A DNA stretch of 64,000 nt, from NCBI RefSeq assembly GCF_016865485.1, contig NZ_AP024452.1, positions 1,076,501-1,140,500 on the forward strand, in the 5' to 3' direction. This document shows positions 55,020 to 64,000 of this stretch, in pieces; the stretch's first letter is position 1, and each line of letters begins with the position of its first letter. Under the pieces are notes generated by a model. It ran no database searches and was not told where the DNA came from. It saw only the letters and a list, made by a program, of their open reading frames with translations. Source of the stretch: Luteitalea sp. TBR-22 (lineage in GTDB: Bacteria > Acidobacteriota > Vicinamibacteria > Vicinamibacterales > Vicinamibacteraceae). The translations under genes and the position numbers were made by a program.

Positions 55020-55915
55020 GACGGGTCTCCCGGAAGGCGGCGACACCGCGCCCCGGCCTGCCCGGCCAGGGTGCGGACGCCCGCGGCGAGGGGCTGCACG
55101 AGCGCGGGGTCGTCGACGATCAACGCCACCTCGCGGCGGAAGTCGAGGCTGAGCGTGGAGAGCGCGAGGCTCCCGACGAGTGCCCGCGCCTCGTCGACCA
55201 CCATCAGCTTGCCATGAGCGACCAGCGGCGGGGGGAGATCCTTGCCCACGACGGTCACCTCCACGCCCGCGGCGCGGCGCTCGCGCAACAGCGTCACGAC
55301 GTCCGGGTCGGCCAGCTTGTGGTCCAGGATGGCAATCGAGCGGCGTGCGCCGCGAATCAGGCCGTGGACGTCGCGCCGGCTGCCTTCGGGGCCGACCACG
55401 ACGCGTCGGCTGAAGTCGCGGTCGAACACCGGCGGGAGCCCGGCCGCATCCGCGTCGAAGAGGCCCAGCAGGCTGCGCGCGACCGAGGCGTCATTGGTGG
55501 TGACCACCGCGTCCCACGTGCGCGTGAAGCACTTGCGGGTCGGGTTCAGGGTCATCACGAGCGACGTGCTGTCGTCGGCGACCAGGTACTTGGCGTGGTA
55601 CTTGACGACGGGATCGGCGAACCAGGCGACGGTCGCCCCCATCCCGGCCAGCGAGGCGTGCAGCCTCGAGAGGGCCTTGCGCCCGCGCCGGGCCCGGCGT
55701 GTCAGGAGGGCCTCGACCTTCACGCCCCGCCGAACCGCCGCCGCCAGTGCCTCCACGACGCCCTCGTCGTCGCAACGGAACAGCGACAGGACCAGCCGGC
55801 GGCGGGCGCCTGCGATCGCGCGCAGCAGCGCCTCGCGGCGCGCGGCAGGCGCCAGCGCGACCGACTCGGTGATCGACGAGGCGTCAGCCGCGCTTGGGCG
55901 GCGACCAGGAGACAT
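55016..55915 (-). CDS. Phospholipase D-like protein (two HKD motifs)
   Basis: A 299-residue protein of the PLD/cardiolipin-synthase superfamily. Two HKD motifs are seen: H-x-K-x4-D as YHAKYLVADD (about residue 108) and AHGKLMVVDEARALVGS (about 243). Each half has the expected strand context (ALLTRRARRGRKALSRL; EVTVVGKDLPPPL). Members hydrolyse or transfer phosphodiester groups of phospholipids or nucleic acids. No signal peptide is apparent. ATG 55915 overlaps the upstream STAS-DUF4956 gene by 32 bp; its stop overlaps the porin start by 4 bp. Confidence 0.88.
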   Translation of the reverse strand: MSPGRRPSAADASSITESVALAPAARREALLRAIAGARRRLVLSLFRCDDEGVVEALAAAVRRGVKVEALLTRRARRGRKALSRLHASLAGMGATVAWFADPVVKYHAKYLVADDSTSLVMTLNPTRKCFTRTWDAVVTTNDASVARSLLGLFDADAAGLPPVFDRDFSRRVVVGPEGSRRDVHGLIRGARRSIAILDHKLADPDVVTLLRERRAAGVEVTVVGKDLPPPLVAHGKLMVVDEARALVGSLALSTLSLDFRREVALIVDDPALVQPLAAGVRTLAGQAGARCRRLPGDPS

Positions 55916-56999
55916 GCTTGATGCTCGCCCGGCCATCGGCCATCAGCTGGGCGCTGAGGTCCTCGATGGAGTCGCCCGGGCCCAGGTTGGTCAGGTAGCG
56001 CGCCGTGGCCTCGTCGCCCTGCGAGACCTCACGGGGCTCGAACACGATGCCGTTGATGGCAAACACCTGGTGGATGTGCGACATCGGCAGCTCGCGGCCC
56101 TCGGCCACGATCTCGACGAGCATGCTCCTCGGCCGGTCGGCGCTCAGCAGGTTCAGCATCGGCAGCAGCGCACACAGGAACAGCGTGCCCAGCCCGGCGA
56201 CCGCGAAGGCGCCCAGGCCGGCCGCCATGCCCAGGCCCATCAGGATGAACAGGATGGTGATGTCGCGCGCGTCCTCGACGGGCGTGCGGAAGCGGATGAC
56301 GCTGGCGGCGCCGGCGATGCCGAAGGCGCGTGCCAGGTTGTTGCCGATCAACACCATCATCAGCGCGCCCGACACGCAGAGCAGCACCTGCGCCTGATCC
56401 ATCGTCGGGTTGGGCGAGCGGTCGCTGCGGTTCTGGCGGTGGACCACGGTCACCAGCATGCCGATCAGCGCCGAGGCCACCAGCTTCGCGAGCTCGAAGA
56501 GCGGGTGGTCGAAGCCGCCCGGCGGGGACGCCACGAAGGGGGAGCCGGCGGCGGGCGCCGTCGCCGTCGGCAGGCCCAGCGTCGGCCACACCATGCCGGT
56601 CCCCACCAGCCCGACGCCGACCACGAGCACGCCGGTGAGGGTCAGGATCCGATCCCAGCGAACGTCCTGCGCCTTGGCGTCGGCGACCGAGTCCTTGACC
56701 TCGAGGACGCCGTCGAGCAGCGACAGGGTCAGCACCTCCCGGACGTGCGGGTTGGGACTGATCAGCGTGAAGCGGCGATTGAGGCGCTGCGCGGAGGTGT
56801 GGCCACGAACCAGCGCCCGGACGCCGGCGCTGTCGGCGGTCGGCACGGCCCGCAGGTCGACGACGACGTGGCGGTAGCCCTCGCGGAAGAGGCCCTGGAT
56901 GCGGCGCTCGAGTTCCTCGGCGGGACCGCCGGCAACGAGCGCTTCCTGGGGCGAGAGCACCAGGCGCGAGCCTGGTGCGTGGGACTGGCTGGTGGCCAT
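55884..56999 (-). CDS. STAS domain fused to DUF4956 membrane domain
   Basis: A 371-residue protein. The N-terminal 110 residues are a STAS (anti-sigma-antagonist-like) domain with VVVDLRAVPTADSAGVRALVRG, including the conserved Asp-Ser where SpoIIAA-type proteins are phosphorylated. The C-terminal 250 residues contain about five membrane helices and the DUF4956 core (LIGNNLARAFGIAGAASVIRFR-type stretch, ending RFRTPVEDARD), then a cytosolic tail. DUF4956 proteins usually stand alone next to VTC-type polyphosphate polymerases and CotH; the STAS fusion is unusual. First gene of the operon phospholipase-D, porin, CotH. ATG 56999 is the only start that keeps the STAS domain. Confidence 0.85.
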   Translation of the reverse strand: MATSQSHAPGSRLVLSPQEALVAGGPAEELERRIQGLFREGYRHVVVDLRAVPTADSAGVRALVRGHTSAQRLNRRFTLISPNPHVREVLTLSLLDGVLEVKDSVADAKAQDVRWDRILTLTGVLVVGVGLVGTGMVWPTLGLPTATAPAAGSPFVASPPGGFDHPLFELAKLVASALIGMLVTVVHRQNRSDRSPNPTMDQAQVLLCVSGALMMVLIGNNLARAFGIAGAASVIRFRTPVEDARDITILFILMGLGMAAGLGAFAVAGLGTLFLCALLPMLNLLSADRPRSMLVEIVAEGRELPMSHIHQVFAINGIVFEPREVSQGDEATARYLTNLGPGDSIEDLSAQLMADGRASIKHVSWSPPKRG

Positions 57000-57111: not shown

Positions 57112-57140
57112 TTGACTCGCGAGAAATTTGCCGATACAAG
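57112..57140 (+). promoter_or_regulatory. Sigma-70-like promoter of the radical SAM cluster
   Basis: TTGACT (57112-57117), a 17-bp spacer and TACAAG (57135-57140) in a locally AT-richer stretch of very GC-rich DNA. It points into the seven-gene run starting at 57240 and leaves an untranslated leader of about 95 nt. Confidence 0.55.
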
Positions 57141-57239
57141 TGATGCCATCACGGCTCGACCAGCACGGGGAGTTGGCAGCGCCGTGGGTGATCGCACCCT
57201 CGCCCCACCGGGTACGGGCCGCGTGCGCCCAGCGAGCTC

Positions 57240-57977
57240 ATGACCCGTACGCCCTTCTTCTGGTTCCTGATCTACGTGCACACCGCGTTCGGCGCGGCCG
57301 TGCTCGGCGCGTCGATCGCCGCCGCGCGCGCCCGCCGCGGCAGCGCCGCCCACCGCCGTGCGGGTTGGTGGTTCGTGCAGGCGATGGCCGGCCTGTTCGT
57401 CACCACGGCCCTGATGGCGTCGATCCGCTACACGTTCTTCCTGTTCGTCATCGGCTACGCGGCGTGGTACGCGTCGCACCAGGCGTGGCTGGGCGTGGCG
57501 GGGCGGGAGGACCGGCCGTACCTGGCCGGCCCACTCGCGACGCGCGTGCAGCACGATCTCGCCGTGATCCTCGGCGTGGCCCTGATGGCGTCGGCCGTGG
57601 CGATGCTCGTGCAGCGCACGTGGCCGATCACGCCGTACGGGCTCGGCCTCGGCGTCGCCTTCGCGTGGGGTGGCGTGCTGGCAGGCGTCGGCGGACTGGC
57701 GCGCGCCGGACGACTGGATCGCCTGCCGCGGCGGTCCCGTCACGCGACGCTCACGACGATCGCGGTCACGGCCGCGTGGAGCGAGTTCGCCGCCGACGTC
57801 ACGGTGCACTTCGTTCCAGCCACCGTCGTGTGGCTCGTCGCCTGGGTGACGCCGGCGCTGCTCGCCGCCTGGCGACTGCACCTCCGCATCGACATCCCTG
57901 CGAGCCTGCTCGCCTGCCTGCGGACCGGCCAGGCGCCGACGCCGGCGTGGCCCGCGGCTCGGGTGTCGCGCCCATGA
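57240..57977 (+). CDS. Multi-spanning membrane protein (DUF2306-like)
   Basis: A 245-residue inner-membrane protein with about six hydrophobic helices (FFWFLIYVHTAFGAAVLGAS; a second near 45-65; FFLFVIGYAAWYA; and three later). The RRGSAAHRRAGWWFVQAM segment after the first helix resembles the DUF2306 family, whose function is unknown. It is the first gene of the radical SAM cluster and overlaps the next gene by 4 bp (ATGA, 57974-57977). There is no signal that it is a transporter; it may anchor or process the cluster's product. Confidence 0.8.
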   Translation: MTRTPFFWFLIYVHTAFGAAVLGASIAAARARRGSAAHRRAGWWFVQAMAGLFVTTALMASIRYTFFLFVIGYAAWYASHQAWLGVAGREDRPYLAGPLATRVQHDLAVILGVALMASAVAMLVQRTWPITPYGLGLGVAFAWGGVLAGVGGLARAGRLDRLPRRSRHATLTTIAVTAAWSEFAADVTVHFVPATVVWLVAWVTPALLAAWRLHLRIDIPASLLACLRTGQAPTPAWPAARVSRP

Positions 57978-59008
57978 CGATGGCATCGCCGGGGTTCCTG
58001 CCGCCGCACGACCCCTTCGGGCGCACGGCGCCACTCGCGTACGAGCTCGAGGTGCCGGTCCTCGGCGTGCCGATGCGGATCAGGAGCAACGCCGCACAGG
58101 CCATCGCCCACGCGGAGCTGACCTACGGCGCGTGGCACGGCCTGCCGGCCCACCTCGTCGAGCCTCGGGCCGCGGCGTGCTTCGACATCGTCGTCCATCC
58201 GCGCACCGACGACATGCTGGCTCCGCTCGCGTATCGCAGGCACGGGCCGGTCTTCATGGCCGCCGCCGGCGCCGTGATGGTGTCGGTTCTGCTCGAGGCC
58301 GACCACGCGGTGGCGTTCGTTCCTGCGCAGGCGCTCGACCAGCGCGAATGGTTCACGGTCAACGTGCTCGGGCTCGCGTGGATGCTGGCCAGCCGCCGGC
58401 GCCGCGTGCCGCTGCACGCGGCCGTGGTGGAGGGCGCCTCGCGAGCCCTGCTGCTGCTGGCCGACAGCGGCGTGGGCAAGTCCACCCTCGCGTACGCGTG
58501 CGGCCGCGCCGGCCTGCGCGTGCTGACCGAGGACACCGTGTTCGTGGACGCGGAGGGCGGGACGCCCCGCCTGTGGGGCGCACTCCCGTGCCACTGGCTG
58601 TCGCCCGACACCGCAGCCGTCTTCCCGGAACTGGCCGACCATCCGGTCGTCGTCCGCGCCAACGGCAAGTCCCGCATCCGCGTGCCCGTGGCCGGGGCTC
58701 CGGTCCTCACCAGCGTCGCGCCGGTCACCGCCGTCCTGATCGTCCCGGGCGGTGACGAGCCCGTCCTCGAGCGTCTCGCCGGCGACACCCTGGCCGACAT
58801 CGTCGCTGCCGATCGCACCGAGGGGTTCGACCAGTATCCCGAGGCGCGCCCGGCGGTGATTGCATGGCTGCGCCGCCAGCCGGCGTACCGGTGCACGCGG
58901 GGCGCCGATCCACGGGCGACCGCCGCCCTGCTCTCGGCCCTCGCGGACGAGGCGCCCGCGGTCACCCCGGCATCCACCCTCCTCCCACTGGTCACTTCGA
59001 TCCCGTGA
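57974..59008 (+). CDS. HPr-kinase-like P-loop protein
   Basis: This 344-residue protein resembles the C-terminal kinase domain of HPr kinase/phosphorylase and the HprK-related proteins found in peptide- and exopolysaccharide-modification clusters. The P-loop is LLADSGVGKSTLAYACG (about 160-176), followed by the family stretch GLRVLTEDTVFVDAEGG. Residues 1-150 form an N-terminal domain with no clear match. True HprK phosphorylates Ser46 of HPr; the motif around the second acidic loop looks altered, so another protein or small molecule is the likely substrate. It overlaps its neighbours on both sides by 4 bp. Confidence 0.8.
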   Translation: MTMASPGFLPPHDPFGRTAPLAYELEVPVLGVPMRIRSNAAQAIAHAELTYGAWHGLPAHLVEPRAAACFDIVVHPRTDDMLAPLAYRRHGPVFMAAAGAVMVSVLLEADHAVAFVPAQALDQREWFTVNVLGLAWMLASRRRRVPLHAAVVEGASRALLLLADSGVGKSTLAYACGRAGLRVLTEDTVFVDAEGGTPRLWGALPCHWLSPDTAAVFPELADHPVVVRANGKSRIRVPVAGAPVLTSVAPVTAVLIVPGGDEPVLERLAGDTLADIVAADRTEGFDQYPEARPAVIAWLRRQPAYRCTRGADPRATAALLSALADEAPAVTPASTLLPLVTSIP

Positions 59009-60495
59009 CAGACGTCCTGCTCGCCACCGCCAACTTCATGGCGCTCGATCCCAAGCAGCGCCGCAAGTCGCGCCCGTATCCGCCCCTCGCGGCGCTGTAC
59101 GCCGCCAGCCTGCTGCGGCAAGGCGGGCTGCAGGTCGGTCTCTTCGACGCCACCCTGCAACCCGACGAAGGGGCGTTCGCCGCCTGCCTCGAATCGCATC
59201 GTCCGCGCCTGGTGGTGCTCTACGAGGACAACTTCAACTTCCTGTCGAAGATGTGCCTCGACCGCATGGCCGACGCCGCGTTGACGATGGCGGCGATGGC
59301 GCGCGCGGCGGGCGCGACGGTGGCGGCAGCAGGGCCGCACGTGACCGATCATCCGGGACGGTACCTGGAGCGTGACGTGCAGTACGCACTGGTGCGCGAA
59401 CCTGACCGCACCACCGCCGAACTCGCGGCCATCCTGCTGGGCCGCGCGTCGGGGCGTCCGGAAGACGTCCCCGGTGTCGTCGTGGCCGACCCGACCACGC
59501 CTGGGAGGCTGCACTTCGCACCGGGCCGCGCACCAGAGCGGCAGCTCGACGCGTTCCCGGAGGCCGCGTGGGATCTCGTCGACGTCGAGGCCTACCGGCG
59601 CGTCTGGACGGCGGCGCACGGCTACTTCAGCCTGAACCTGGTGACCACCCGCGGGTGCCCGTTCCACTGCAACTGGTGCGCGAAGCCGATCTGGGGGCAG
59701 CGCTACGCGATGCACTCACCGGCCCGCGTGGCGGCCGATCTCGCCAGCCTGAAGGCGCGGTGCCGGCCCGATCACGTGTGGTTCGCCGACGACATCTTCG
59801 GGCTCCGCCCGGCGTGGGTCACCGAGTTTGCCAGGGAGGTCGCGGCGCGCGACGCCCGCGTGCCCTTCACGATCCAGACGCGGGCCGACCTGATGACGCC
59901 GGAGGCGGTGCACGGGCTCGCGCAGGCCGGCTGCGTCGAGGCCTGGCTCGGCGCCGAGAGCGGCAGCCAGCAGGTGCTCGATGCCATGGACAAGGGCACG
60001 ACGATCGAGGAGATCGCGGTGGCGCGTCGTCGCCTCGGGGCGGCGGGCATCCGCGCCGCGTTCTTCATCCAGTTCGGGTATCCCGGCGAGGAATGGCCGC
60101 AGATCCAGGAGACGGTGGACATGGTGCGCCGCCTGCTCCCCGACGACATCGGCGTGAGCGTGACCTACCCGCTGCCGGGGACCGGCTTGTACGAGCGGGT
60201 CCGCCAGGAACTCGGCGCCAAGACCCAGTGGGTGGACAGCGACGACCTGGCGATGATGTTCCAGGGCACGTACACGAGCGAGTTCTACCGGCGCCTGCAC
60301 GCCCTGCTGCACCGCGATCTCGACGTGCGTCGTGCCGGCGCGGCCGGGCAGGACGTGGCGGCAGAGGCGGCCGCGGTGCGTACGGCGTGGGACGCCCTCG
60401 AATGCGACGAGGCGAACCATCGCCGCGCCGATGTCGTGTCACTGGGCGCGCGCACGCCATCGCCGCGACCGGTCCTCGCCCTGGACGCCAACTGA
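59005..60495 (+). CDS. Cobalamin-type radical SAM protein 1
   Basis: A 496-residue protein. The N-terminal 190 residues look like a B12-binding Rossmann domain (RPYPPLAALYAASLLRQGG; LVVLYEDNFNF; AAAGPHVTDHPGRYL), although no DxHxxG motif is seen, so cobalamin would be base-off or absent. The radical SAM core begins near 205 with the cluster motif RGCPFHCNWC (C-x3-C-x2-C), followed by FADDIFGLRP and WLGAESGSQQVLDAM. The C-terminus is a helical extension. It resembles enzymes that methylate or rearrange unactivated carbons. Start GTG 59005 overlaps the kinase gene by 4 bp. Confidence 0.88.
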   Translation: MTDVLLATANFMALDPKQRRKSRPYPPLAALYAASLLRQGGLQVGLFDATLQPDEGAFAACLESHRPRLVVLYEDNFNFLSKMCLDRMADAALTMAAMARAAGATVAAAGPHVTDHPGRYLERDVQYALVREPDRTTAELAAILLGRASGRPEDVPGVVVADPTTPGRLHFAPGRAPERQLDAFPEAAWDLVDVEAYRRVWTAAHGYFSLNLVTTRGCPFHCNWCAKPIWGQRYAMHSPARVAADLASLKARCRPDHVWFADDIFGLRPAWVTEFAREVAARDARVPFTIQTRADLMTPEAVHGLAQAGCVEAWLGAESGSQQVLDAMDKGTTIEEIAVARRRLGAAGIRAAFFIQFGYPGEEWPQIQETVDMVRRLLPDDIGVSVTYPLPGTGLYERVRQELGAKTQWVDSDDLAMMFQGTYTSEFYRRLHALLHRDLDVRRAGAAGQDVAAEAAAVRTAWDALECDEANHRRADVVSLGARTPSPRPVLALDAN

Positions 60496-60496
60496 C

Positions 60497-61894
60497 GTGC
60501 CCGACGTCCTGCTCTCGCACGGCTACTTCCTCGCCGAGGACCCGAAGGAACAGCAGATCATGCGGCCGTACCCGCCGCTCGGGCTGCTGTACCTCTCGGC
60601 GTACCTCAAGCGCGCCGGATTCGGCGTCGAGATCTTCGACAGCACGCTGCGGACTCGCGCCGAGCAGTCGGCGACGCTGGCCTCGCGCGGCGCGCCGGTG
60701 CTCGGCCTCTACACGAACCTGATCACGCGCCGGTCGGTGCTCGACGTCGCGGCCGTCGCGCGCTCGCACGGCTGGACGGTGGTGCTCGGCGGTCCCGAGT
60801 CGGCCAACTATCCCCGCGAGTACCTGTCGCGCGGCGCGCACGTCGTGGTGCTCGGCGAGGGCGAGGTGACGATGGCGGCGCTGCTCGAGGCGCTGCCGAC
60901 CCGCGGCCCGCACCGGCTGCACGAGGTGCCGGGCCTGGCCTTCCTCGACGAGGCCGGCGAGATGGTCGTCACCGCGCCACGGCCGCAGGTCGAGGATCTC
61001 GACTCGCTGCCGTGGCCCGACCGCGCAGCCATCGACCTGCCCGCGTACGTCGACATCTGGCGCACGCACCACGGCCGGGGCAGCGTCAACCTGATCACGG
61101 CCCGCGGCTGCGCCTATCGCTGCAACTGGTGCAGCCACGCGGTGTACGGCCACACGCATCGCCGTCGGCGACCTGAGGCGTGTGCCGACGAGGTCGCGCA
61201 CATCCGCGAGGCGTACGCGCCGGACCAGCTCTGGTACGCCGACGACGTGTTCACCATCGACCATCGCTGGCTGAAGGCCTACGCGGAGGAGATCACCAGG
61301 CGCGGCCTCGCGCTGCCGTTCGAGACGATCTCCAGGGCCGATCGCATGCTGAAGGAGGACGTGTTCGAGGCGCTGGCCGCGCTCGGGTGCTCCCGCATCT
61401 GGATCGGCGCCGAGAGCGGCAGCCAGCGGATCCTCAACGCGATGCAGCGCGGCGTGACGCGCGAGCAGGTGCAGTGGGCGGCGCACGCCGCCCGCCGGCA
61501 CGGCATCGAGGTCGGCATGTTCCTGATGTGGGGCTACGAAGGCGAGACCCCCGACGACATCGCCGAGACCGTCGACCTGGTCAAGCGGGCGCACCCGCAC
61601 GTGTTCTTCACGACGCTCGCCTATCCGATCGCCGGAACCGGCTACTACCGCAAGGTCGCCGACCGCGTGTCGCTGCCCGTGCCCTGGGAAGACGCCACCG
61701 ATCGTGACCACGTGATCGCCGGGCGCCGCGACCGCGCCTACTACGCCCACGCCGACCGCTGGCTGCGGCGCGACGTCGAGGCGCACCACCTCCGCGAGGC
61801 CGATCCCGGCCGCGCCTCCATGCTCGCCGCCGAGGCCGACGAGGCGCGTCGTGCGCTGCTGGCGGCGCACCACGCGGACGCGGCGAGGCCGTGA
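60497..61894 (+). CDS. Cobalamin-type radical SAM protein 2
   Basis: A 465-residue paralogue of the preceding protein. Shared layout: MRPYPPLGLLYLSAYLKRAG at the N-terminus, then GGPESANYPREYL and a GEGEVTMAALLEALP segment, and the radical SAM motif RGCAYRCNWC (C-x3-C-x2-C) near 213. Downstream are ADDVFTIDHRWLKAYAEEI and IWIGAESGSQRILNAMQRG. The C-terminal 60 residues are charged and differ from protein 1. GTG 60497 follows the upstream stop by one base. It probably acts in sequence or as a partner with protein 1. Confidence 0.9.
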   Translation: MPDVLLSHGYFLAEDPKEQQIMRPYPPLGLLYLSAYLKRAGFGVEIFDSTLRTRAEQSATLASRGAPVLGLYTNLITRRSVLDVAAVARSHGWTVVLGGPESANYPREYLSRGAHVVVLGEGEVTMAALLEALPTRGPHRLHEVPGLAFLDEAGEMVVTAPRPQVEDLDSLPWPDRAAIDLPAYVDIWRTHHGRGSVNLITARGCAYRCNWCSHAVYGHTHRRRRPEACADEVAHIREAYAPDQLWYADDVFTIDHRWLKAYAEEITRRGLALPFETISRADRMLKEDVFEALAALGCSRIWIGAESGSQRILNAMQRGVTREQVQWAAHAARRHGIEVGMFLMWGYEGETPDDIAETVDLVKRAHPHVFFTTLAYPIAGTGYYRKVADRVSLPVPWEDATDRDHVIAGRRDRAYYAHADRWLRRDVEAHHLREADPGRASMLAAEADEARRALLAAHHADAARP

Positions 61895-62667
61895 CGACGA
61901 CGGACGCGTTCGACGGACTGGCGGCCGACTACGACCGCGCCTTCACGCAGACCCGCATCGGGCGGTGGATGCGCGAGGCGACCTGGCGGCGCTGCGACGC
62001 GCTGTTCCCGGCGGGCGCGCGGGTCCTCGAGATCAACTGCGGCACCGGCGAGGATGCCGTCCACCTCGGACGGCGCGGCGTCCGCGTCGTCGCCACCGAC
62101 GCCTCGCCCGCGATGGTGACGGTGGCCAGGCGGAAGGTCGAGGACGCGGGACTGGAGTCGGTCGTCGAGGTGGCGCTACGGCCCATCGAGGCCATCGGCG
62201 ACGACCTCGGCGCCTTCGACGGCGTGTTGTCCAACTTCGGCGGCCTCAACTGCGTCGGCGACCTTGCGGCGGTGGCGACCCGGCTGGCCGGCGTGCTGCG
62301 CCCGGGAGGTCGGGCGCTCCTGTGCGTGATGGGGCCGCGTGTGCCCTGGGAGTTCGCGTGGTTCGCGATCCGGGGCGACCTGGCGCGCGCCCGCCGGCGT
62401 CGCCGCGGTGGCGTGACGTGGCGAGGCATGACCATCCACTACTACGCCGCGGCAGACGTGCGCGCCGCCTTTGCGCCGGGCTTCCGCGTGACGCGCACCT
62501 GGGCGCTGGGCGCCGTGATGCCGCCGCCCTTCGCCGAGGCGTGGGCGGTGACGCACCCGCGGCTGTCGGCAGGACTGGCGCGCCTGGAGCGTCGTCTCGA
62601 GACGGCCTGGCCGCTGCCCTCGCTCGCCGATCACGTGGTCGTCGAGCTCGAACGGAGGCCCGCGTGA
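61891..62667 (+). CDS. SAM-dependent methyltransferase A
   Basis: This 258-residue class I methyltransferase begins with TTDAFDGLAADYDRAFTQTRIG and has the SAM loop VLEINCGTGEDAVHLGRRG (about 46-64), the post-strand-2 acidic residue in ATDASPAMV, and GVLSNFGGLNCVGDL as motif IV. The C-terminal half is a substrate cap including RGMTIHYYAAADVRAAF. The relatives methylate small molecules, often polyketide- or sugar-derived. Its start overlaps the preceding stop by 4 bp (GTGA), and its own stop overlaps the next gene's GTG. Confidence 0.88.
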   Translation: MTTTDAFDGLAADYDRAFTQTRIGRWMREATWRRCDALFPAGARVLEINCGTGEDAVHLGRRGVRVVATDASPAMVTVARRKVEDAGLESVVEVALRPIEAIGDDLGAFDGVLSNFGGLNCVGDLAAVATRLAGVLRPGGRALLCVMGPRVPWEFAWFAIRGDLARARRRRRGGVTWRGMTIHYYAAADVRAAFAPGFRVTRTWALGAVMPPPFAEAWAVTHPRLSAGLARLERRLETAWPLPSLADHVVVELERRPA

Positions 62668-63356
62668 ACGCCTGGCGCCGGCTCGCCGTGCGCGCGGCGC
62701 TGCCCGTCCGCCGCCATTTCCTTCGTAAGCGGCTCGGCCGGTTGGTGTGCGAGGAGGTCGAAGGCATCAGCCTGGTCGTGCTGCCGACGGTCTTCAACGC
62801 GGCGGTGTTCGGCAGCAGCGACGTGCTGGTGCGGGCGTTGCGCGCCCACGCCCGCGTCAGCGGCGGTCCTCGCGGGCGCCTGCTCGACATGGGCACGGGC
62901 ACCGGGATCGGTGCCGTCGCCGCGGCGCAACTCGGGTACGAGGTGGTCGCCGTGGACGTGAACCCCGACGCCGTGCGATGTGCGCGAATCAACGCGCTGC
63001 AGCACCGCGTGGAGGACCGGGTGCGTGCCGTCGAAGGCGACCTGTTCGCGCCGCTCGACGGGGAGCGGTTCGACGTGGTGCTCTTCAATCCGCCCTTCTT
63101 CGACGGAGCGCCGCGCTCGACCCTCGATCGCGCGTGGCGGAGCGTCGACGTGCCCGAACGGTTCGGCGCCGGATTGCCGGGCGCCCTGGCCCCGGGCGGG
63201 GTGGGCCTCGTCATCGTCTCGAGCCATGGCGGCCGCGAGCGGACCGAAGGCGCGTTGCGGCAGGCGGGCCTGCACGTCGACGCGTTTCTGGTGGAGGATC
63301 TCGGCTACGAGGTCGTCACCGTGCTCGCGGCGCGAGCCGAGGGGAGCGCCGCATGA
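62664..63356 (+). CDS. Methyltransferase B with NPPF motif
   Basis: A 230-residue methyltransferase of the HemK/PrmC-like branch. The SAM loop is LLDMGTGTGIGAVAAAQ (about 74-90), the acidic residue after strand 2 is in VAVDVNPDAVRCA, and motif IV is VVLFNPPFFDG; N-P-P-[FYW] is used by enzymes that methylate a planar amide or amine nitrogen. The N-terminal 60 residues are basic with a short helix (VRAALPVRRHFLRKRLGRL). The target may be a biosynthetic intermediate or a protein glutamine. It overlaps the next radical SAM gene by 4 bp (ATGA). Confidence 0.87.
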   Translation: MNAWRRLAVRAALPVRRHFLRKRLGRLVCEEVEGISLVVLPTVFNAAVFGSSDVLVRALRAHARVSGGPRGRLLDMGTGTGIGAVAAAQLGYEVVAVDVNPDAVRCARINALQHRVEDRVRAVEGDLFAPLDGERFDVVLFNPPFFDGAPRSTLDRAWRSVDVPERFGAGLPGALAPGGVGLVIVSSHGGRERTEGALRQAGLHVDAFLVEDLGYEVVTVLAARAEGSAA

Positions 63357-64000
63357 GCAGGCCACGCGTGCTCCTGGTCAACCCCCGGATGTGCTCCCGC
63401 CGGAGCATGCGCCTGCCGTTGTCGTTGCTGTCGCTCGCCGCCGTGCTCGACGGGCGGTACGAGTACGAGATCCTCGACGGCAACCGCATCGGCGATCTCG
63501 ACGCGGCCATCGCGGCCGCGCTGCAGCGGTCGCCGCGTGCCGTGGCCGCCGTCAGCGTGATGCCCGGGCCGCAGGTGGCGCCGGCGATCGCCGCGAGCGT
63601 GGCCATCCGCGCCCGGCGGCCCGACGTGCCGATCGTCTGGGGCGGGTACTTCCCGAGCCTCTACGCCGACGCTGCCATCAACGCGCCGTACGTGGATCAC
63701 GTGGTGCGTGGCGCCGGCGAGGACACGCTCCTCGACCTGCTGGCGGTGTTGCCCGAGGCCGGCGGCGGCACGCCGTCGCCAGCCGTGGCGTCCGGCCTGG
63801 CCGGCATCGCGGGGCTCACGTGGAAGGGCGACGGCCGCGTGGTGCACAACGCGGCGCGCGCCTTCGTCGACCCCGATGCGCGCCCTCCGCTCCCGTACCA
63901 CCGGCTCGAGGGCGTCCGCGAGTACCTGCGGCCCACGTACATGGGGGCGAGGACGGCGGTGCACCAGGCCGCCATCGGCTGTCGTTACCGCTGCAGTTTC
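63353..64000 (+). CDS. Cobalamin-type radical SAM protein 3, N-terminal part
   Basis: The window ends 216 codons into this ORF. It starts SRPRVLLVNPRMCSRRSMRL and has B12-binding-type Rossmann features (LSLAAVLDGRYEYEILDGN; VAAVSVMPGPQVAPAIAAS; PIVWGGYFPSLYADAA; VVRGAGEDTLLDLLA). The final residues AIGCRYRCSF are the start of a C-x3-C-x2-C radical SAM cluster motif. It is less similar to proteins 1 and 2 than they are to each other, so it probably performs a different step. It overlaps methyltransferase B by 4 bp. Confidence 0.85.
   Translation, partial: MSRPRVLLVNPRMCSRRSMRLPLSLLSLAAVLDGRYEYEILDGNRIGDLDAAIAAALQRSPRAVAAVSVMPGPQVAPAIAASVAIRARRPDVPIVWGGYFPSLYADAAINAPYVDHVVRGAGEDTLLDLLAVLPEAGGGTPSPAVASGLAGIAGLTWKGDGRVVHNAARAFVDPDARPPLPYHRLEGVREYLRPTYMGARTAVHQAAIGCRYRCSF

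Follow-up and report, generated by a model that had tools for sequence, protein, structure and literature searches.

At the downstream end of the window, a 64,000-nucleotide stretch covering positions 1076501-1140500 of a single 6.47-Mb contig of Luteitalea sp. TBR-22, seven genes form a tight operon encoding a membrane protein, an HprK-like kinase, three radical SAM proteins (rSAM_A, rSAM_B and rSAM_C) and two methyltransferases (MT1 and MT2) (Table 1). Gene calling, run on the extended sequence, confirmed the 4-bp ATGA/GTGA overlaps (at 57974, 59005, 61891, 62664 and 63353) and the 1-bp gap (at 60496) by which an earlier note on this DNA had joined the genes. As that note had also stated, the third radical SAM gene runs off the window; its end was located at 64888. 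The extension past 64 kb that it had recommended was fruitful: after rSAM_C, convergent minus-strand genes continue the cluster, encoding an NTP_transf_5 nucleotidyltransferase (NTP5), two FkbM methyltransferases and one glycosyltransferase. The single promoter-like element that had been placed over the operon was not recovered, since a sigma-70 scan, with other promoter types outside its scope, found no promoter-like site. The membrane gene had been counted with the set, and it does overlap the HprK-like gene, but it has no detectable relative in the 148 other genomes of the order; on these searches it is probably specific to this genome within its order and lies outside the conserved cassette. 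Upstream of the operon lies a gene whose product looks like a STAS-type domain with a membrane region behind it; only one weak relative of it was found in seven related genomes.

Table 1. Genes of the operon and its flanks, in window numbering continued past the window end, and loci of relatives with particular neighbours
Feature	Position or loci	Strand	Remarks
STAS-type/membrane gene	55884-56999	minus	upstream of operon
Membrane protein gene, 245 aa	57240..57977	plus	ATGA overlap with HprK-like gene; no Pfam match
HprK-like kinase, 344 aa	57974..59008	plus	predicted HPr kinase/PEPCK fold
rSAM_A, 496 aa	59005..60495	plus	signature gene of cassette; CxxxCxxC at C218, C222, C225; degenerate B12-binding domain
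rSAM_B, 465 aa	60497..61894	plus	sister paralogue of rSAM_A; B12-binding domain intact, with GG motif
MT1, class I SAM methyltransferase, 258 aa	61891..62667	plus	generic class I enzyme
MT2, NPPF-motif methyltransferase, 230 aa	62664..63356	plus	domain match
rSAM_C, 511 aa	63353..64888	plus	window cut at 64000; B12-binding radical SAM; same as L009:6853-8388
NTP_transf_5 (PF14907) nucleotidyltransferase (NTP5)	64851-66050	minus	Pfam
Two FkbM methyltransferases	66079-67871	minus	domain match
Glycosyltransferase (PF13524)	67868-69019	minus	Pfam
GT4-rSAM_A fusion loci	L037, L038, L039, L045, L046, L047, L050		
Phosphorylase/amidohydrolase loci	L070, L073, L080, other Chloroflexota loci; L037, L046, L084, L106		

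Radical SAM proteins, kinase and methyltransferases

Few members of the large group of B12-radical SAM enzymes have a well-assigned function; besides sugars, members of the superfamily act on lipids, peptides and tetrapyrroles. Each of the three proteins matches Radical_SAM (PF04055) and B12-binding (PF02310) and carries the CxxxCxxC motif, as is characteristic of the superfamily. The earlier assignment of all three to the B12 type therefore stands as far as both domains are concerned, but in rSAM_A the B12-binding domain is weak (26.4 bits, below the gathering cut-off of 32.1) and lacks the paired glycine. The GG motif is invariant in rSAM_B and rSAM_C, whereas rSAM_A has [C/A/S]G instead; among 56 rSAM_A homologues the position of the first Gly is mostly C, A, S or N, and the loop EDNFNYLSKMC is nearly invariant. 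Judged from this alignment, the predicted ligand site of rSAM_A is conserved but altered. In the paralogue tree the rows of rSAM_B and those of rSAM_C are each united with full support. So are those of rSAM_A, except for one (L103_5), a misassigned row on a very long branch that was left out of the distance test described below. rSAM_A and rSAM_B are sisters, which bears out the paralogy proposed for two of the proteins.

None of the three radical SAM proteins reached an NCBIfam cut-off, the best scores being about 60-125 bits against cut-offs of 360-750. They share domain architecture with HpnJ/HpnR, BchE, PhpK, ApyD and rSAM_ladder_B12 but fall in none of these equivalogs; membership in HpnJ, BchE, PhpK, ApyD and other named B12-radical SAM equivalogs was rejected, as all the curated cut-offs were missed. 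The assignment of rSAM_A as an AprD4-family radical SAM diol dehydratase (NF033070) was discarded in the same way (66.8 bits, cut-off 500). In the PDB, the best match to the rSAM_A sequence is AprD4 (paromamine), at about 21% identity. The AF2 model of rSAM_A (pLDDT 89.8) matches the B12-radical SAM fold, MgmA ranking first by E-value and AprD4 having the top TM-score (0.70); the similarity to AprD4 is generic to the superfamily.

Domain and NCBIfam searches agreed with the earlier reading of two methyltransferases and an HprK-like P-loop protein at the locus. In the alignment of ten homologues of the HprK-like protein, H148, K169 (P-loop) and D187 are invariant and D212 is near-invariant. Its best PDB sequence match is HPr kinase, and the best fold match of its AF2 model (pLDDT 84.8) is PEPCK. 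The P-loop, the catalytic His and Asp and the common fold, as seen in the alignment and the model, mark it as a predicted HPr kinase/PEPCK-fold kinase. Its P-loop kinase region is homologous to HprK-related kinases A (TIGR04352) and B (TIGR04355), but with 41.8 and 24.1 bits, respectively, far under the cut-off of 200, it was rejected as a member of either. Within the sample of the order, this genome and G040 have the kinase, and a third match is weak. MT1, a generic class I methyltransferase, is the partner most often seen with rSAM_A/rSAM_B in other phyla. MT2 carries the NPPF motif, and NPPF methyltransferases occur only in loci with rSAM_C (7/7 NPPF loci). The description of the operon as unassigned is supported: no NCBIfam cut-off was reached by the radical SAM proteins, and no cassette or cluster of this kind was found described in the open-access literature.

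Distribution and gene neighbourhood of the cassette

Close relatives of rSAM_A (E below 1e-100) are present in 15 of the 149 genomes that make up the order sample, this genome counted in both numbers. It had been asked whether the genes are kept together in relatives; they are in other families and phyla, but in a patchy way, for none of the six nearer genomes tested, four others of the genus and two of the family, has a close rSAM_A relative. Flanking synteny breaks down within the genus, which left no empty site to be demonstrated. A scan of GTDB contigs yielded 468 rSAM_A relatives, the best 80 of which span about nine phyla (Acidobacteriota, Chloroflexota, Actinomycetota, Methylomirabilota, Pseudomonadota, Planctomycetota, Armatimonadota, Latescibacterota and KSB1). 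A frequent gene order is nucleotidyltransferase/HprK - rSAM_A - rSAM_B - MT1 - (MT) - rSAM_C, and an actinobacterial minimal form reads HprK - GT4 - NTP5 - GT4 - rSAM_A - MT1. The recurrence of the same gene set across phyla points to more than chance. Pairwise distances are correlated for rSAM_A-rSAM_B (0.70), rSAM_B-MT1 (0.70), rSAM_A-rSAM_C (0.68), rSAM_B-rSAM_C (0.77) and rSAM_A-MT1 (0.28); all five values (rho 0.28-0.77) exceed 999/999 permutations and include a contribution of organismal relatedness, kinship not having been removed. These correlations indicate that rSAM_A, rSAM_B, rSAM_C and MT1 travel as a unit. In the paralogue tree the proteins of this genome group with those of G040 and next with a Fimbriimonadaceae locus, and rows from Chloroflexota and Planctomycetota lie close to them, which fits transfer between phyla. 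The cassette is a cross-phylum one and was probably transferred horizontally.

The neighbourhood was analysed in 81 loci, the best 80 of the 468 relatives and this one, so that the counts describe close rSAM_A relatives, with the roles of neighbours taken from BLAST clusters of simple gene calls. MT1 occurs in 55 loci, rSAM_B in 32, a second methyltransferase in 30, rSAM_C in 21 and the NPPF methyltransferase in 7. A nucleotidyltransferase is found in 52 (NTaseF0 in 43, NTP5 in 9) and HprK in 11. NTaseF0 (L101:463-1401 and 42 other loci) is conserved, measures about 313 aa and shows a GS...D-I-D motif resembling that of nucleotidyltransferases; in 40 loci it is encoded directly upstream of rSAM_A. 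It has no Pfam or NCBIfam match, and a PDB search gave only a weak match to the MNT antitoxin (E 0.02). No significant relationship between NTaseF0 and NTP5 emerged from a profile comparison (probability 1.2%), and the two were therefore handled as separate families. Since HprK never occurs together with NTaseF0 in the 81 loci, and NTP5 is present in 8/11 HprK loci (the NTP5 label of one, L061, resting on a doubtful ORF), the data suggest that NTaseF0 and the pair of HprK and NTP5 replace one another, despite the lack of a profile match.

Genes of glycan assembly are frequent in the same 81 loci: glycosyltransferases in 42, O-antigen ligase-like genes in 27 and flippase-like genes in 25, as raw counts taken without matched random loci. 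They include GT4, Wzx-like flippase and O-antigen ligase, and the flippase and ligase neighbours are found in many Chloroflexota and Acidobacteriota loci. Glycosyltransferases, flippase and ligase, as expected of an EPS/O-antigen cluster, are present in many relatives; in this genome there are only the glycosyltransferase, FkbM and NTP5 genes on the opposite strand, and the operon has neither flippase nor ligase beside it. A GT4 glycosyltransferase and rSAM_A are one in-frame ORF in seven genomes of the order, encoding proteins of roughly 910-1000 aa. No recognised glycosyltransferase, flippase or ligase family was found in 32 of the 81 loci, several of which are short contigs. Of the further neighbours, a nucleoside phosphorylase is present in 20 loci, a fourth radical SAM protein in 17, one of the SPASM type in 13 and an amidohydrolase in 8.

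A modified sugar unit as candidate product

The earlier note had named two settings for HprK-like kinases, RiPP and exosortase/EPS clusters. Glycan assembly is favoured by the glycosyltransferase, flippase and ligase neighbours and by the glycosyltransferase fusion, while the RiPP setting lacks a conserved precursor. In a RiPP pathway, the kinase would phosphorylate a peptide serine as in lasso peptides, the B12-radical SAM proteins would C-methylate or cross-link residues, and the precursor would be encoded elsewhere. Lasso kinases carry a His-Lys-Asp-Asp motif, and the lasso cluster of pseudomycoidin contains an HprK-like kinase (PsmK) and an annotated nucleotidyltransferase (PsmN) that jointly make a phospho-glycosyl group (PMC9266682), a pair resembling the HprK-like kinase and annotated nucleotidyltransferase of the cassette. 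The best NCBIfam match of rSAM_B is also a RiPP enzyme, ApyD (122.6 bits, cut-off 750). However, the substrate of PsmK/PsmN is a peptide serine, whereas the cassette is without lasso core genes or precursor: no lasso B/C protein, PqqD-like gene, RRE or precursor was recognised in the gene-called region around the operon, and no conserved small precursor ORF was found near the cassette in related loci. Glycosyltransferase, flippase and ligase genes are present instead, and rSAM_A is fused to GT4. As precursor and core genes were not found, a RiPP was rejected as the main reading and is considered quite improbable; the product is probably an unusual modified sugar unit and not a peptide.

A second alternative is a lipid pathway like that of the hopanoid side chain or of ladderanes. 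It assumes that the radical SAM proteins act on a lipid and that a phosphorylase or deaminase removes or alters the adenine of an adenosyl-lipid, with glycosylation and radical rearrangement following, by the logic of HpnH-HpnG-GT-HpnJ. HpnJ and rSAM_ladder_B12 are among the best NCBIfam neighbours of the radical SAM proteins, and relatives carry next to rSAM_A either a PNP_UDP_1 nucleoside phosphorylase (20 loci) or a purine-deaminase-like amidohydrolase accompanied by a SPASM radical SAM protein (8/8 loci), never both. Every curated cut-off was missed by a wide margin, though, and HpnG and HpnH match weakly, with 25.5 and 43.8 bits; genes for terpene or lipid formation were not seen, and the operon of this genome contains neither phosphorylase nor deaminase nor SPASM protein. 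A lipid pathway is regarded as unlikely, with some probability left to it by the phosphorylase, deaminase and SPASM genes of relatives. In the relatives, the phosphorylase and the amidohydrolase could serve recycling of 5'-deoxyadenosine/SAH or a step of the pathway.

Precedents for radical SAM enzymes acting on aminoglycoside sugars are AprD4, a radical SAM diol dehydratase of apramycin biosynthesis, and GenD1 and GenK, class B radical SAM methylases of gentamicin biosynthesis (PMC5461906). Like the proteins of the cassette, they have a B12 domain, and they act on glycans. The cassette differs from them in the identity of rSAM_A to AprD4 (about 21%), in that no AprD3-type reductase partner was recognised at the cassette, in having several paralogues per operon and in its context, which is that of glycan assembly rather than of an antibiotic. 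These precedents sit in aminoglycoside clusters, and the actinobacterial minimal set (HprK, NTP5, GT, rSAM_A and MT1) is without flippase or ligase, so that the same enzymology might have another fate, yielding a diffusible, aminoglycoside-like saccharide antibiotic or signal and not a structural surface glycan. Yet no aminocyclitol or aminotransferase gene was recognised among the recurrent neighbour families, and flippase or ligase neighbours are found in many Chloroflexota and Acidobacteriota; we give this fate a small chance.

The best supported reading, because of the sugar-acting radical SAM precedents, the pseudomycoidin pair, the glycan neighbourhood and the GT4 fusion, is that the cassette serves a cell-surface glycan or glycolipid, for which it would either make and activate an unusual sugar-derived unit or modify an oligosaccharide linked to a lipid. 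A probability of roughly one half is assigned to it, and a glycan role of the cassette as such is fairly likely. We infer the following substrate, reaction types and order of steps. In the first step rSAM_A, with rSAM_B and rSAM_C, would use 5'-deoxyadenosyl radicals to functionalise unactivated carbons of the sugar; rSAM_B and rSAM_C, in which the B12 motif is kept, would carry out C-methylation, and rSAM_A, with its degenerate motif and AprD4 as nearest solved relative, perhaps a deoxygenation or rearrangement. O- or N-methyl groups would then be added by MT1, MT2 and possibly the FkbM enzymes. In the third step the HprK-like kinase would phosphorylate a hydroxyl, which NTP_transf_5 would nucleotidylate or onto whose phosphate it would transfer a group, and the last step, incorporation of the unit, would fall to the glycosyltransferases. 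A pathway of the Wzx/O-antigen-ligase type would export the product in other lineages. Several observations stand against this reading: the operon of this genome has no adjoining flippase or ligase; 32/81 loci lack any recognised glycosyltransferase, flippase or ligase family; the resemblance of rSAM_A to AprD4 is generic; and the phosphorylase or amidohydrolase of many relatives fits a plain sugar pathway only if it recycles by-products.

A wider proposal, which we make only tentatively, is that of a pan-bacterial, horizontally shared pathway in which paired radical SAM paralogues and a sugar kinase of its own, resembling HPr kinase, take part. Its product would be a surface-glycan sugar unit that is C-modified by radical chemistry, methylated and phosphate-bearing (nucleotide-activated). 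If true, it would represent a class of glycan building blocks so far undescribed. The co-inherited set, found in about nine phyla, linked to glycan genes and fused to a glycosyltransferase in seven genomes, limits the kinds of substrate to be considered for hundreds of proteins, and the definition of the cassette makes the question of their function testable. If the sugar-unit reading is right, many environmental bacteria would carry surface sugars made by radical chemistry, which on sugars is, to our knowledge, so far known mainly from a few antibiotics.
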